In this document: in pieces, positions 40,898-45,728 of the stretch
Numbering within the stretch: the first letter of the stretch is position 1
How the letters are laid out: every line of letters starts with the position of its first letter
Origin: Desulfocarbo indianensis
Lineage (GTDB): Bacteria; Desulfobacterota; Desulfarculia; Desulfarculales; Desulfarculaceae
Assembly: GCA_001184205.1 (NCBI GenBank)
Contig: LBMP01000005.1
Span: forward strand, 1-64,000
DNA length: 64,000 bases
Direction of reading: 5' to 3'
Notes under the pieces: model-generated
Databases searched by the model: none
Told to the model about the DNA's origin: nothing
Seen by the model: only the letters and a program-made list of their open reading frames with translations
Translations under genes and position numbers: made by a program

Positions 40898-40951
40898 ACA
40901 AAAAGTGCTCATATCAATAGCATGGGGAAAGCCCCGGCAAGACGCAACCGG

Positions 40952-40983
40952 TAAAAAAGCCCGCGCCAGGCTTTGGCGCGGGC
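40952..40983 (-). terminator. Intrinsic terminator of the lipoate operon
   Basis: Read on the minus strand, GCCCGCGCC, a 7-base loop and GGCGCGGGC form a 9-bp perfect stem followed at once by six T. It lies 23 bp after the stop of the last radical SAM gene, so it ends the ligase/flavoprotein/radical SAM transcript before the rubredoxin promoter. Confidence 0.88.
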
Positions 40984-41005
40984 CCATCTCGGCGTTTCAC
41001 GCGGT

Positions 41006-42067
41006 CTAATAGCTAAAAAGCTGCTCCCTGACCAGGGCGATATCGTCCTGGTCCAGGGCAAAGGGATAGTTGCGCAGATCGGGCCCCGGCTTTTCATTGC
41101 CAAAGGGCCGGTTGCAGGCCACCTCGCCCGAAGCGCCGGGGCAGCCCGAGGTCATGAAGGGCTTGCCCGAGGCGATGGCCGCCTCCATAACCGCCGGGTC
41201 CGCGCCGAATTCCCGCACCCGGCCCTGGCCGTCGAAGCTCATGTCCGCGGCCCCGGCCTGGTCATGGTCGATGAGCCAGCGGGCGAGCTGCACCCTGCGG
41301 TAGCCGCTGGGGTCGGGCTGGGGGCGTTCGCCCAAGGCGGAGAACTTCTCCGGGAAAAAACAGAACAAATGGGTGCTGCCGCCGGCCCGGCGCGCCCGGT
41401 CCATGGCCCCTATGAGCTGCTCCTCGCTTTCGCCCAGGCCGTGGATCAGGTGCACCCCCACCCGGTCCCGGCCGAACGCCTCCACGGCTTCGTGGAAAAT
41501 CCGCCAATAATGCTCCCAGCGGTGGGGCCCGCCGGCCGGCTTGCCGCGCAATTGGGCGAAGAGCTCCGGGGTGGCCGCGTCTATGGCCACGCCGATGCGG
41601 TCCGCGCCGGCCTCCCGCATATCCAGGAGGTCCTCCCGCTTCAGGAGGGTGGGGGCGATCAAGAGGCTCACCGGCAGGTCGGTGCGCTCCCGCACCTGGC
41701 GGCAGATGGCCAGGGTGTCGGCCCGGGCGCGGGGGTGGGTGATCTGGGAGATGCAAACCCGCTCCACCCAGGACGGCGCCTGGGCGCAGCGCTCCAGGAT
41801 TTCCTCCAGGGGATGCGAAGCCCAGGCCACCCGGATGAATTTCTCGAAGCGGGGATTGTTGCGGTGGGGGTTTTCCCTGGCCAGGCCGCAAAAGGAGCAG
41901 TTGGCCTTGCAGCCGGAAGCATATGAAAGCAGCAGATTGATGCAGCCCAGGCGGGCGTTGCGATAGAAGCGCCCCTGGGCCAGGCCCAGGGTCATGGCGG
42001 CGGCCAGGGAGAGGCGGACATGATCGGGGCTGAAGCTTGGCTCCAATCGCTGCGCTGCTTGGTTCAT
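41006..42067 (-). CDS. Radical SAM protein, LipS1/LipS2-like (lipoate sulfur insertion)
   Basis: Radical SAM enzyme of 353 residues. The SAM [4Fe-4S] site is Cys53, Cys57 and Cys60 in SGCKANCSFCG (C-x3-C-x2-C). The domain order and the C-terminal cysteine pair (Cys309, Cys318) suggest a second cluster, as sulfur-inserting enzymes of the BioB type need. In the alternative lipoate route two such proteins together insert sulfur at C6 and C8 of the protein-bound octanoyl chain. The neighbouring ligase, flavoprotein and second radical SAM gene support this. Which of LipS1 and LipS2 it is cannot be decided here. An ATG with a weak GGGG ribosome site starts it. Confidence 0.72.
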   Translation of the reverse strand: MNQAAQRLEPSFSPDHVRLSLAAAMTLGLAQGRFYRNARLGCINLLLSYASGCKANCSFCGLARENPHRNNPRFEKFIRVAWASHPLEEILERCAQAPSWVERVCISQITHPRARADTLAICRQVRERTDLPVSLLIAPTLLKREDLLDMREAGADRIGVAIDAATPELFAQLRGKPAGGPHRWEHYWRIFHEAVEAFGRDRVGVHLIHGLGESEEQLIGAMDRARRAGGSTHLFCFFPEKFSALGERPQPDPSGYRRVQLARWLIDHDQAGAADMSFDGQGRVREFGADPAVMEAAIASGKPFMTSGCPGASGEVACNRPFGNEKPGPDLRNYPFALDQDDIALVREQLFSY

Positions 42068-42110
42068 GGCATTTATCCCCTTTCCCGCGGCCCGCTCCCG
42101 CCCCGGGGCG

Positions 42111-43049
42111 TCAGGCCAGGGAGCAACAAGTGTCGGCCTGGGTTATTTCTACTTCGAGTTCGCGGGCCTTGTCCAGGGCCGCGTCGGAGGCGATGGCCAA
42201 GACGTTGACCCCCGCCTCCACGGCCAGGGCGTCCAAGCGGGCCCGGTAACGGCCCCGCGGCCGGGCGCAGCCCAGGTGATGGGCCGGGGCGGGCAAGACC
42301 TCCCTGGCCAAGGCCAGGAAACGCGCCGCCTCTTCCACGGCCGGCGGCTCCGCGCCGGCGAATGGCGTGCTCTTGAGCGGCATGAGCACCACGAACACCA
42401 CCCGCCGGGCGTTAAGGCCGGCCACAATCCGCAAGGCCTTTTCCTCGCCCAAAAAGCGCCCGCCGTGCAAGCCCAGAATGATGTGGGGAACCACCTCCAG
42501 CCCGGCCTCGGCCAGGGAGCGCAAGGTCTCTTCCTGGACCTGGAGACCCTGGGCCAGATGCAGCACTTCGCGGGCGGTGCGCTCATGGCCCACCACGTCG
42601 ATGAGCGCCTGGCGCACGCCGGCCGCCTTTAAAGCCCGCGCCGTCTTCACGTCCAGCCTGGCCACGTGGGCGGTCACGGTGAGGCCGGTCTCGGCTATCA
42701 CCCGCTCGATGGCCGGCAGGAACCCGGCCCAGGGCAAACGGCCCTCCCCGTCGCTGCCGCCGGAAAGCAGAAAACCGTGCTGGCCGCCCGCCGCCAGTTT
42801 GCGCCCCAATTCGAGCAAATCCTCCGGCGTGGTGGCCGGCAGCATGGTTTCCAGCAGGCGGCCCCGGCAGTGATCGCAGCCCAGCAGGCAGGACCGGCCG
42901 GTGAGGCTCACCGCCGGATAGCGGCCCTTGCGGCCGTACACGGTGAACATGCCCGGATTGGCGATGGTCAGCTTCCTGCCGTGGCGCGCCCAGGACTCCC
43001 GGCGGGCCCTGGCCAAAATATCTTTCAGTTCCGCGGCGGAGTCGCTCAC
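42111..43049 (-). CDS. Radical SAM protein, LipS1/LipS2-like (lipoate sulfur insertion)
   Basis: Radical SAM enzyme of 312 residues. Cys54, Cys58 and Cys61 in CLLGCDHC ligate the SAM cluster, and LLSGGSDGEG near 95-104 is the GGE-like SAM contact. The C-terminus ends in a Cys-Cys pair five residues from the end, and another cysteine precedes ARPRGRYR, so a further cluster or sulfur donor site is possible. Start GTG at 43049 overlaps the end of an 18-codon reading frame (GTGA). It is the second of two dissimilar radical SAM partners in this operon. Confidence 0.72.
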   Translation of the reverse strand: MSDSAAELKDILARARRESWARHGRKLTIANPGMFTVYGRKGRYPAVSLTGRSCLLGCDHCRGRLLETMLPATTPEDLLELGRKLAAGGQHGFLLSGGSDGEGRLPWAGFLPAIERVIAETGLTVTAHVARLDVKTARALKAAGVRQALIDVVGHERTAREVLHLAQGLQVQEETLRSLAEAGLEVVPHIILGLHGGRFLGEEKALRIVAGLNARRVVFVVLMPLKSTPFAGAEPPAVEEAARFLALAREVLPAPAHHLGCARPRGRYRARLDALAVEAGVNVLAIASDAALDKARELEVEITQADTCCSLA

Positions 43050-43102
43050 GCGGCTTCACCCTGGCCAATGCGCGCCGGCCGCTGCTTAGGCTTCATGATC
43101 AT
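43046..43102 (-). CDS. Possible 18-residue leader peptide coupled to the radical SAM gene
   Basis: In the 62-bp gap after the flavoprotein gene, an ATG at 43102 with a very good AAGGAG site opens a frame of 18 codons. Its TGA overlaps the GTG start of the radical SAM gene as GTGA. The peptide is basic (MIMKPKQRPARIG...). It could serve only to load ribosomes for re-initiation at the GTG, which has no good site of its own. No homologue is known to me. Confidence 0.35.
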   Translation of the reverse strand: MIMKPKQRPARIGQGEAA

Positions 43103-43111
43103 CGCCTCTCC

Positions 43112-44152
43112 TTAAGCCGCCTTTTTCCAGCCGGGCCAGACCCCGGCCATCAGCTCCGCGAAGTCTTCGGCTCCCCAGCCCGCCAACATGCGGCGGCGGG
43201 CGGCCAGCCCCCGGCTTAAGTAACCCTTGAAGGCCAGGGAGAGCTGGTGGGCGTACTCCTGGGCCGCCTCCGCGCCGCCACCGGCCAGGGCCAGGGCGGC
43301 CTCCCCGGCCAGGCGGCCCGAGGTCAGGGCCTGGGGAATGCCCGCGCCGGTTATGGGGTGGGTGAGCCCGGCGGCGTCGCCGGCCAGCAGCAGGTTGCCC
43401 GCCGGGGCCGGCGGCCGGGGGCCGCCCACCGGGATGGCCCCCCCCCCCAGGGCCAGCACCCCCGGCTTGATGAGGCCCCGGCTTATGAGATCGCGCCGCA
43501 ATGCTTCCAGAAGGCTCAGGGGCTTGGCCCGGCCCAGGCAGCCCACGCCCAGATTGGCCGCCCGCCCCTTGGGAAACAGCCAGGCGTAGCCGCCCTCAAA
43601 GGCGGGGTCCAGAAACACCAGGGTGCGGTCCAGGGCCTTGGCCAGGGGCACCTCCACCTGCACGCCGGCCAGCAGCTCCTGGCGGCCCAGCCCGAAGGCC
43701 CTGGCCGTGGCCGAGGCCGCGCCGTCGGCCGCCAGCACGCAGCCGGCCGCCACCTCGCGCCTGTCCCGGCCTTTCTGGATGACGAGCCGCCCGTCGCGGA
43801 CTCCCGCCAGGCTGGCCCCCGCCTCCAGCACCGCCCCGGCCTGGGCCGCGCCCAGGGCCAGGTCGTGGTCGAACACCTGCCGGTCCAATATCCAGCCCGG
43901 AGTCGGCGCGTACTGGCTGCGCCCGCCCAGCCGGGTCTCCATGCCCTCCACCGGCTGCACCTTGCAGCGGGCGGGCAAATCCATCTCCAGGCTTAAGGCC
44001 CTGGGAACGAACTCGGCGCAATGGGGCAGGGCCCCGGCCCGGCGCTTGCGTTCCACCACCAGCACCCTGGCCCCGCCCTGGGCCGCGGCCAGGGCCGCGC
44101 AGGAGCCGGCCGGACCGGCCCCGATTACGGCCACGTCCCAGGTCTCAGGCAT
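43112..44152 (-). CDS. FAD-dependent geranylgeranyl-reductase-type flavoprotein, LipT-like
   Basis: Flavoprotein of 346 residues. The N-terminal dinucleotide fold has GAGPAGSCAAL (residues 11-21), and the FAD ribityl-phosphate motif LLAGDAAGLTHPITGAGI lies near 270-287, both typical of the geranylgeranyl reductase group. In lipoate assembly clusters of sulfur oxidisers a protein of this family, LipT, accompanies lipS1 and lipS2 and is thought to supply electrons. The ATG overlaps the ligase gene by 8 bp. Context makes lipid saturation, the other common role of this family, less likely. Confidence 0.75.
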   Translation of the reverse strand: MPETWDVAVIGAGPAGSCAALAAAQGGARVLVVERKRRAGALPHCAEFVPRALSLEMDLPARCKVQPVEGMETRLGGRSQYAPTPGWILDRQVFDHDLALGAAQAGAVLEAGASLAGVRDGRLVIQKGRDRREVAAGCVLAADGAASATARAFGLGRQELLAGVQVEVPLAKALDRTLVFLDPAFEGGYAWLFPKGRAANLGVGCLGRAKPLSLLEALRRDLISRGLIKPGVLALGGGAIPVGGPRPPAPAGNLLLAGDAAGLTHPITGAGIPQALTSGRLAGEAALALAGGGAEAAQEYAHQLSLAFKGYLSRGLAARRRMLAGWGAEDFAELMAGVWPGWKKAA

Positions 44153-45728
44153 GGGCCCGCTCCGGGCTCATGATGCGCGCCACCTTTTCGATGAGGCCCT
44201 GGTTCATTTCGGTCTGGTTGTCAAAGCGGCCGCGATAGGCGTCCATGCCCTTGCCCAGGTCGTAGCAGGTGGTGGAATCCAGGTTGACCAGCACCCCGCG
44301 GGCGCCGCTGCCCTCCATTTCCCGCTGGTGCTTGCAATAGAAGGCCTCGCAGCAGGAGCCCAGGAAAACGCCGCCTTGCCGGGAGATGATTCGCAAATTT
44401 TCCATCAGGTGCTCGAAGCTTTGAATGGAAACCGGCCGCAAGCCCAGCTCATGGGCCAGGCCGTAAAGCGGCTGGAATTGGCACTCGCCGCACTGGGCGC
44501 AGTCCGCCACGAAGCGGTATTCGCAGTCCAGGGGCTTGGAGCAATAGGGCAAGAGCAGCCAGTCCGCCCGGATGCCGCCCATTTCCCGCGGCTCCAGGCC
44601 CACCAGGAAAAGCTCGGCCGCCTCCTCCTCGCTGAAGCTGCGGCCCAGCTCCCGCCGCGCGGCGGCGTGGGCCACGGCCCCGGCCACCTCCTGGGGGGAG
44701 ATGCCCAAAAGCTCGCCATCCGCGCCGCGCAAGAATTCCAAGACCACGGCGTGCAGGGCCTCGGGCTTGGCCTTTTGGCCCATGAGCGCCGCTTCCAGAT
44801 CGAACACCAGGCGCTGGGGCTGGGCGAAGAAATCCCCGCTGATGAGCGCCTTCTGCACCCGGAGCCCCCGCGCGTCCAGCCAGAGCACCACCCGCAGGTT
44901 GCCCTGGTCGGTTTGCAGGATGTGCCTTAGCCAGGCCGGGCGGACCCTGCCGCCTCCGCGCCGGGAGCCGCTTTTCAAATGGACCCACTCGTCGCTTTGG
45001 TAATAGGGCAGGCGCTGGGCGACCTCCTGGCGCTCATCCGGGCTCAGGCCGCCGGGCTTAAGCTGCAAGCCGAGGCTTTGGCTGAACTCGTCGGCGATGG
45101 CCCGCTTCAGGTCCGCCAGGTCCAAGGGACCGATCAGGTCTTCCACAAAGGCCAGCCGCTGCATGAGGGATTCGATCTCCCGCTTCTTCAGCTTTTCCAC
45201 CGGCACCCGCAAGGCACGCAGGAAGCGCTCGATCTCGTTTTTGACGAGCACCGTGCCCTGGAACAGGGCGCCGTTGTCCAGCACGAAACCGCCGGTGCCG
45301 GATATCTTGCGGCCGTCCACTTCTATATCGTTGCGGGGCCGGAAACTGGCCTCCAGGCCCAGGCGGCGATAGGCCCGCGCCGCGGCCTGGCAGATGCGGG
45401 CCAGGCCGGCCTCGAAGCCGCCGGCGAAAGGCCCCTGGCCCTGCGGCGCGATGAGCTCCCAGCCCAGGGCCGAGGATTGGAACAATAAGGCCCCGCCGCC
45501 GGTGAGGCGGCGATTGACCTCTATGCCGTTCCGGCGGCAGAAATCCAGGCGAAGCTCGCGCTCGGCCTCCTGGTGATAGCCCAGGAGGGCGGCGTCCGGC
45601 TTGAAGCGCAGAAAGCGCAGGGTGGGCGGACTCAAGCCCTGGCCCGCCCGGCGGGTCAGCACCTCGTCCAGGGCCATGTTTTCCGCCGCGCTCAAAAGGC
45701 CGGCATCCAATAGCCTGAAACTCGCCAA
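44145..45728 (-). CDS. Lipoate-protein ligase (LplA-LplB) fused to a DUF116 domain
   Basis: Protein of 527 residues with three parts. Residues 1-240 are the ligase catalytic domain, with RRLTGGGAL (73-81) and Lys141 in GRKISGTGG, the adenylate-contact lysine. Residues about 250-370 match the LplB accessory domain (RLVFDLEAALMG). Residues about 385-520 match DUF116, with cysteines at 396, 402, 410, 413, 416, 459, 460, 465 and 488, enough for an Fe-S cluster. It would attach octanoate or lipoate to E2 or GcvH proteins for the two radical SAM partners. The start is TTG at 45728 with AAGGGGGG upstream. The role of the DUF116 part is unknown. Confidence 0.85.
   Translation of the reverse strand: MASFRLLDAGLLSAAENMALDEVLTRRAGQGLSPPTLRFLRFKPDAALLGYHQEAERELRLDFCRRNGIEVNRRLTGGGALLFQSSALGWELIAPQGQGPFAGGFEAGLARICQAAARAYRRLGLEASFRPRNDIEVDGRKISGTGGFVLDNGALFQGTVLVKNEIERFLRALRVPVEKLKKREIESLMQRLAFVEDLIGPLDLADLKRAIADEFSQSLGLQLKPGGLSPDERQEVAQRLPYYQSDEWVHLKSGSRRGGGRVRPAWLRHILQTDQGNLRVVLWLDARGLRVQKALISGDFFAQPQRLVFDLEAALMGQKAKPEALHAVVLEFLRGADGELLGISPQEVAGAVAHAAARRELGRSFSEEEAAELFLVGLEPREMGGIRADWLLLPYCSKPLDCEYRFVADCAQCGECQFQPLYGLAHELGLRPVSIQSFEHLMENLRIISRQGGVFLGSCCEAFYCKHQREMEGSGARGVLVNLDSTTCYDLGKGMDAYRGRFDNQTEMNQGLIEKVARIMSPERAHA

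Follow-up and report, generated by a model that had tools for sequence, protein, structure and literature searches.

Why would a genome that holds the canonical lipoate enzymes keep a second operon for lipoate assembly, and what does the additional domain carried by its ligase do? The question is raised by a window of 64,000 nucleotides of Desulfocarbo indianensis (positions 1 to 64,000 of contig LBMP01000005.1), in which four contiguous open reading frames (ORFs) of the minus strand, from 45728 to 41006, encode in that order a lipoate-protein ligase, the flavoprotein LipT and the radical S-adenosylmethionine (SAM) proteins LipS1 and LipS2. There is very little doubt, judging from gene content and conserved residues, that the set represents the LipS1/LipS2 route of lipoate assembly. 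With moderate confidence, it is read here as an additional lipoylation line for GcvH-like carriers working with Hdr-type enzymes and 2-hydroxyacid oxidases, in which a DUF116 domain fused to the ligase would act as an iron-sulfur (Fe-S) relay from LipT to LipS1 and LipS2. The pathway is known and the variant is widely conserved; what is new is a Cys-rich domain fused to the ligase, the association of this domain with LipT and a group of carriers with the context K-W-x-G at the lipoyl lysine and with Hdr- and GlcD-type neighbours. Gene identities, ligand positions, the fused domain, operon conservation and the counts of co-occurrence and neighbourhood were read directly from sequence.

Gene set and domain structure of the ligase

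The ligase gene (44145..45728, minus strand) has a TTG start and encodes 527 aa. The product matches PF21948 (LplA-B_cat) with E 2.4e-41 over residues 14-215, and three domains can be delimited. An LplA catalytic domain covers approximately residues 1-250 (44979..45728, minus strand), its boundary being drawn from the secondary structure of an AlphaFold model of the whole fusion. It is followed by an LplB-like domain at about residues 265-363 (44640..44936, minus strand), recognized in the model and by NF053749, which matches residues 280-355 with 36 bits, below its cut-off of 65. The DUF116-like domain occupies about residues 367-520 (44169..44630, minus strand) and scores 24.7 bits with PF01976 over residues 390-490, for a gathering cut-off of 25. 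Residues R73, R74, G77-G79, K141, G298 and D299 are present in 141/141 aligned ligases, rows under 330 bits being excluded. Family matches, alignment and model agree on a single chain that unites LplA, LplB and the catalytic lysine K141, as in sLpl(AB); the third domain departs from the definition of sLpl(AB) as domains A and B only. The sequence-only reading, which had taken the protein for an sLpl(AB), had overlooked the LplB region and the C-terminal DUF116 domain. By family, the enzyme is predicted to activate and attach octanoate or lipoate.

Eight cysteines are invariant in the DUF116 domain (396, 402, 410, 413, 416, 459, 460 and 488), being kept in 51/51 domains of a first set, in 54/54 fusions and in 49/49 domains, these sets overlapping. 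The AlphaFold models display an alpha/beta fold with a mean pLDDT of 88.5 for the domain alone and 89.9 for the whole fusion. In VIA-align the best match to the domain model is a designed Rossmann 2x2 protein (Z 7.9, rmsd 2.9, 100 aligned), followed by type II dehydroquinases with Z near 7 and receiver domains with Z near 5; these middling scores only indicate a common alpha/beta arrangement. A profile search for solved DUF116 homologues returned 5dqr alone, with E 0.26. The modelled fold fits the prediction made for arCOG02078, namely a flavodoxin-like fold with a guessed role in electron transfer (Makarova 2015, PMC5898192). The domain shares with DUF116/COG1852/arCOG02078, as described there, a C-x2-C-x2-C motif with further cysteines and an alpha/beta-type fold, and differs in its fusion to a lipoate ligase and in additional invariant Cys-Cys and T-C-Y motifs. 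Fused-type domains also form a group separate from other DUF116 proteins: in a sample of 395 genomes of the phylum they score at least 186 bits in 46 genomes, and the next score among the matches listed is 38 bits.

The start of lipT overlaps the stop of the ligase gene by 8 nt. LipT (43112..44152, minus strand, 346 aa) is a geranylgeranyl-reductase-type protein scoring 185 bits with the subfamily model TIGR02032, and its gene has the expected character of a lipT, that of an FAD-binding oxidoreductase clustered with lipS1 and lipS2. LipS1 (42111..43049, minus strand, 312 aa) and LipS2 (41006..42067, minus strand, 353 aa) match NF053742 and NF053743, respectively, over their full length. Both carry the radical SAM motif C-x3-C-x2-C, at residues 54/58/61 in LipS1 and 53/57/60 in LipS2. 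The LipS1 positions C54, C58, C61, H189, C261, C308 and C309 are conserved in at least 100 of 101 sequences, and C53, C57, C60, C105, C309 and C318 of LipS2 in 116/116 (rows under 440 bits excluded; the alignment floors were 440 bits for LipS2, 250 for LipS1, 90 for LipT and 330 for the ligase). These residues can be set beside the cluster ligands of Thermococcus kodakarensis (PMC9585515), which are C27/C31/C34, H159 (a suggested ligand), C230, C276 and C277 in LipS1, and C39/C43/C46, C85, C276 and C279 in LipS2. Counted from the first cysteine, no LipS1 ligand is more than 5 residues away from its T. kodakarensis counterpart. The radical SAM motif, the three cysteines and histidine of LipS1 and the three further cysteines of LipS2 are all found, as matched by spacing without alignment to the Thermococcus proteins. 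The last pair of LipS2, CX2C in T. kodakarensis, is CX8C in 112/116 sequences, with spacings of 2, 9, 11 and 14 in the others; a CX2C-type LipS2 in L074 (G163) lies under the 440-bit limit and outside the 116.

An intrinsic terminator closes the operon 3' of lipS2 (40950..40990, minus strand). It consists of a 12-bp inner stem and a U-tract, with a hairpin of -25.3 kcal/mol (z -4.0) whose stability was equalled by 0/200 shuffles. It was located by folding; a consensus terminator scanner gave no entry for 40990-40950. The sequence-only reading had announced four contiguous genes with a strong terminator and two radical SAM proteins with C-x3-C-x2-C sites, and both descriptions are borne out. 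Family models support its assignment of the genes to the ligase-LipT-LipS1-LipS2 route, as do the ligand positions and the gene order, both of which are conserved, and its sulfate-reducing-type genome is consistent with the nearest relatives (Desulfarculaceae).

KWxG carriers and the canonical enzymes

Elsewhere in the genome, lipA (327 bits, over the cut-off) directly adjoins lipB, and within the aligned parts the products are 48% (LipA) and 36% (LipB) identical to their E. coli counterparts. The operon is therefore additional; as a substitute for the canonical route in this genome it is ruled out by the adjoining pair. The sequence-only reading had noted that LipA and LipB were absent nearby, which holds for the surroundings and fails for the genome; the complete lipA-lipB pair elsewhere, one half of what it had said would tell against it, is indeed present.

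The clients of an additional line may be sought among the GcvH-type proteins, of which the genome encodes four. One groups with E. coli GcvH (support 0.98) and has its lipoyl lysine in the context ESAKSVS, and two have it in ESGKW[VL]G. The fourth (L013:7658-8575, genome C268) is 306 aa long, has an N-terminal region rich in Cys and lacks the lipoyl lysine. The context K-W-x-G is found in 38/40 GcvH-type proteins of the first locus set, the exceptions being the ordinary and the lysine-less copies of this genome.

A KWxG-carrier profile applied to the 395 phylum genomes displays a score gap from 156 to 147.5 bits. Six-frame translation confirmed KWxG in 30/30 loci above the gap and in 0/20 sequences just below it, where 19/20 show the ordinary ESxK context and L291 neither. 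Carrier and LipS2 occur together in 55 genomes and are both missing from 330, LipS2 being alone in 3 and the carrier in 7 (p 1.4e-55, uncorrected for relatedness). Among the genomes listed, genus g72 has 5 with both, 5 with neither and 0 discordant, and the two genes co-vary within eight families, with exceptions in f11 and f9.

Gene neighbourhoods were compared for 19 KWxG loci (L299-L317), whose carriers all read [EQ][ST]xKW[VIL]G, and 20 ordinary GcvH loci. A CCG-type gene (HdrB, GlcF or a GlcD-CCG fusion) lies beside 18/19 of the former, the exception being L315, and in 1/20 of the latter (L329); the ordinary loci also include an HdrA-type match in L333 and a nearby LipA in 4/20. The KWxG loci had been chosen for other reasons and are non-random, and the G132 flank had been seen beforehand. 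L298, centred on the ligase, was excluded from the carrier count, G093 and G096 were replaced in the control by G225 and G322, and contig ends cut some loci in both groups. Of the two KWxG carriers of this genome, that at C1:94402-94806 is flanked by HdrA, HdrA-FlpD, HdrC (by eye) and HdrB types and, on its opposite side, by an 860-aa GlcD-CCG protein, and that at C111:164905-165309 lies among GlcD-type, CCG-type and ligase genes. Locus L329 (G031) combines three GcvH-type matches with HdrA- and HdrB-type genes, and the copy checked there is neither KWxG nor ESxK.

We consider it probable, with good confidence from these sequence counts, that the KWxG GcvH-like carriers are the clients of this lipoylation line. 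KWxG would provide a one-line sequence marker to distinguish LipS-line carriers from ordinary GcvH, so that 'glycine cleavage H protein' annotations in anaerobes could be re-read as possible redox carriers of Hdr- and GlcD-type enzymes.

With thresholds of E 1e-60 for LipA and E 1e-10 for LipB, 49 of the 58 genomes with LipS2 have LipA, 47 have LipB and 8 have neither (G031, G102, G184, G208, G215, G252, G313 and G331). The fused operon is present in four of these eight (G102, G208, G215 and G252). Among the candidates scored, G102, G208 and G252 have one GcvH match each, within the KWxG score range, and KWxG was read directly in G102 and G208; G215 has four GcvH matches.

The DUF116 domain, LipT and rival explanations

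Scanning a genome collection for the fused DUF116 domain retrieved 214 relatives, and the analysis was confined to the 80 best loci; many of these are metagenome-assembled and many contigs are short. DUF116 and ligase share one ORF in 80/80 of the loci kept, in bacteria and archaea alike. The bacterial sources among these best 80 of 214 comprise Desulfarculaceae, Desulfomonile, Chloroflexi, WOR-3, Planctomycetota, Caldisericia, Cloacimonadota and Clostridia, and the archaeal ones Terraquivivens, Bathyarchaeota, Baldrarchaeota, Thorarchaeota and others. LipT is found in 69 of the 80 loci, LipS1 in 54 and LipS2 in 56. When restricted to the 37 loci flanked by at least 4 kb on either side, the counts become 36 for LipT, 33 for LipS1, 32 for LipS2 and 31 for all three. 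In a midpoint-rooted ligase tree, 108/108 fused ligases (duplicates removed) fall in one clade (support 0.71), whose unfused members are just L131 and a tandem copy in L136. A single fusion event followed by later losses is therefore likely.

The domain is tied to LipT in particular. Among the 58 LipS2 genomes, 44 have both DUF116 and LipT, 13 have neither, one (G001) has LipT alone and 0 have DUF116 alone (Fisher p 4.4e-12, uncorrected for relatedness, with a LipT threshold of at least 240 bits; G163 is scored as lacking LipT although a 219-bit match exists). Since LipS1 and LipS2 occur without DUF116, the domain looks more like a partner of LipT, as would suit a relay of electrons, than like a helper of LipS1/LipS2 as such. 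A role as helper of the two radical SAM enzymes alone is weakened by the same 13 genomes. The relay function itself is proposed tentatively, at somewhat under even chances.

Three explanations retain a lipoate route and differ in what is made of the extra domain or of the clients. Pathway and clients could be unchanged, with DUF116 serving to repair clusters or supply sulfur, so that the auxiliary [4Fe-4S] clusters sacrificed in LipS1 and LipS2 are rebuilt. Such a function has a counterpart in NfuA, which rebuilds the auxiliary cluster of E. coli LipA. The eight invariant cysteines, in a domain tethered to the enzyme on which the acceptor docks, would suit it, and the auxiliary clusters of LipS1/LipS2 have been taken as the sulfur source (PMC9585515). 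A repair factor should nevertheless follow the enzymes that consume the clusters, whereas DUF116 follows LipT and both are missing from the 13 LipS2 genomes mentioned above. This explanation is unlikely, if still credible.

Alternatively, within an unchanged pathway, DUF116 could select KWxG carriers by recognition or docking and bind a structural metal through its cysteines. Its fusion partner is the enzyme that selects the substrate, and client specificity has been described for related ligases of sulfur oxidisers (PMC6067878). However, type B ligases, which are devoid of DUF116, adjoin KWxG carriers as well; the domain hence seems unneeded for carrier recognition, and a docking role is improbable.

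The operon could also be a redundant general lipoylation route, gained by transfer and serving all lipoyl proteins without any dedicated client. This would agree with the presence of LipA and LipB in the same genome and with a LipB-LipA fusion near the LipS genes of some relatives, but neither the tight co-occurrence with KWxG carriers, which extends to the listed genomes of one genus, nor the operon remaining intact in 31/37 well-flanked loci is readily accommodated, and we regard it as quite unlikely. LipB and LipA were seen fused in single ORFs at L243:5235-6947 (G165; 571 aa) and L244:10742-12499 (G372; 586 aa); long frames shared by LipB and LipA occur in G001, G015, G077 and G285, and long LipB frames in G076, G190 and G335.

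That both radical SAM proteins sulfurate a different acyl substrate, the set being unrelated to lipoate, is highly improbable: scores under the equivalog cut-offs and the CX8C auxiliary spacing of LipS2, in place of CX2C, could be cited in its favor, but all mapped ligand positions are present with similar spacing and genes for the ligase and for GcvH-type carriers share clusters.

The additional line with a DUF116 relay has evidence to contend with as well, and the following points weigh against it. LipS1 and LipS2 miss the NCBIfam equivalog cut-offs, with 207 versus 230 bits and 213 versus 270 bits; the profile check suggested by the sequence-only reading thus gave full-length LipS1/LipS2 and family matches, with both scores short of these limits, and the set is filed as a variant outside the NCBIfam equivalogs. 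In the phylum sample the LipS2 cut-off is passed in 1/395 genomes and that of LipS1 in 7 of the 58 LipS2 genomes, which suggests that the LipS2 cut-off fits other lineages; at these limits almost the whole phylum falls outside the models, and ligand residues are considered the better test of identity. LipS2 occurs without a carrier in G078, G113 and G163, and the carrier without LipS2 in G009, G045, G068, G167, G279, G374 and G393. No GcvH-, Hdr-, CCG- or GlcD-type match lies within the window, so the operon has no carrier beside it here. In some genomes a fused LipB-LipA, belonging to a second lipB-lipA set, is encoded some 20 kb or less from KWxG carriers. This argues against a strict separation of tasks, and the two lines may work together in such genomes. 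Concerning the domain, the flanks of the well-flanked locus L215 hold no LipT, LipS1 or LipS2, and the fused domain occurs with no LipS2 or LipT match in G094 (80% complete) and G009 (85%). G001 combines LipT, LipS1 and LipS2 with a ligase devoid of DUF116, so that the domain is not strictly required or was lost in G001. LipS1 is matched in 9 of the 13 LipS2 genomes without LipT and DUF116. Foldseek, queried with the DUF116 model, found no solved relative with an E of 0.001 or lower, and DUF116 has zero occurrences in the available text of PMC10332631, which describes sulfur-oxidiser ligases along with LipT.

A further candidate was a monothiol (8-mercaptooctanoyl) cofactor made by LipS2 alone in loci composed of GcvH, ligase and LipS2. 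It is not supported in general, because a LipS1 match exists somewhere in 54 of the 58 LipS2 genomes. LipS1 is unmatched in G231 (95% complete) and G368 (97%), both fragmented, and in G042 (67%) and G313 (89%); the LipS2-only cofactor could apply to G231 and G368. Three-gene sets of carrier, ligase and LipS2, with DUF116, LipT and LipS1 not nearby, were observed in L114, L115, L124-L130 and L132; most of these genomes have LipS1 elsewhere, and G231, G368 and G313 have no match.

Other observations concern the surroundings of these genes. Upstream of the operon lie an RNase E/G-type gene and the gene of a TIGR03960 radical SAM protein, and the segment 40022-40812 of the window, 3' of the terminator and on the same strand, holds rubredoxin-like genes (by eye) and a DsrE-like gene. 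In Planctomycetota, a 663-aa ORF (L204:3435-5423) fuses LipS2 to LipS1 and adjoins a KWxG carrier and a ligase-DUF116 gene. An OsmC-like gene (by eye) is present in 9/80 ligase-DUF116 loci (L180, L181, L182, L190, L194, L204, L216, L222 and L229); the OsmC superfamily includes lipoyl-dependent peroxidases. No LipS2 match was obtained among 72,556 plasmid records.

Proposed mechanism and comparison with known systems

The additional line can be briefly summarized as follows, the enzymatic steps, the clients and the Fe-S content and relay role of DUF116 being what we infer from the above. The ligase would attach octanoate (or lipoate) to the lysine of the carrier. LipS2 would then insert sulfur at C8 and LipS1 the second sulfur at C6, an order predicted by homology, with their auxiliary clusters as the sulfur source. 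LipT would deliver electrons derived from NAD(P)H, and DUF116, holding at least one Fe-S cluster, would relay them to the radical SAM enzymes where the octanoylated carrier docks. The clients would be the GcvH-like carriers with the K-W-x-G context, two in this genome, whereas ordinary GcvH would be served by the canonical LipB-LipA pair. The lipoyl arm could thereafter connect a 2-hydroxyacid oxidase to Hdr-type enzymes as a thiol-disulfide shuttle.

The electron source of LipS1 and LipS2 is not settled in the papers cited here; NAD(P)H-dependent supply by LipT has been proposed, not demonstrated (PMC10332631). DUF116 would be a direct candidate, because it is Cys-rich, fused to the ligase and found almost only where LipT is. 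More speculatively, and on balance doubtfully, the lipoyl-KWxG carrier of many anaerobes could be a protein-tethered stand-in for CoM-S-S-CoB, reduced by a GlcD/CCG oxidase and reoxidised by an HdrABC-type enzyme, its lipoyl group being built by a dedicated line in which the ligase-fused DUF116 relays electrons through Fe-S from LipT to LipS2/LipS1.

No description of the fused DUF116-ligase or of KWxG carriers was found in the open-licence listings and passages searched, DUF116 and lipoate not having been searched jointly. The closest known system is the sLpl(AB)-LipS1/LipS2(-LipT) route of sulfur oxidisers (Tanabe 2023, PMC10332631; Cao 2018, PMC6067878). Both systems cluster the same four functions, namely a ligase with LplA and LplB, an FAD protein and two radical SAM proteins. 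As compared by description, the ligase studied here differs by its DUF116 domain and LipS2 by its CX8C auxiliary motif. In sulfur oxidisers, GcvH-like clients are outside the reach of the canonical route, and the ligases are client-specific according to PMC6067878. The KWxG carrier beside Hdr genes recalls LbpA beside sHdr in these organisms. Within the window the sHdr-LbpA linkage is absent, the full shdr set not having been sought in the rest of the genome; compared with LbpA of sHdr sulfur oxidation, again by description, the clients appear here to be KWxG carriers beside CCG-, Hdr- and GlcD-type genes.

The LipS1 and LipS2 proteins resemble those of T. kodakarensis (PMC9585515) in their radical SAM and auxiliary ligands, matched by spacing on sequences that were not aligned. 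They differ in the last cysteine pair of LipS2 and in gene organization, the operon with LipT and a single-chain ligase contrasting with the unlinked LipS1 and LipS2 genes of the archaeon. In Culexarchaeia, GcvH adjoins Hdr genes and its lipoyl form was suggested to coordinate a disulfide for HdrB (PMC9723716). That cluster is archaeal and linked to a hydrogenase, whereas the carriers described here have GlcD/CCG neighbours, occur in bacteria and archaea and are accompanied by a lipoylation operon. The idea of a separate lipoate economy would in this way be extended from sulfur oxidisers to Desulfarculaceae and their relatives, Chloroflexi, WOR-3 and several archaeal lineages.

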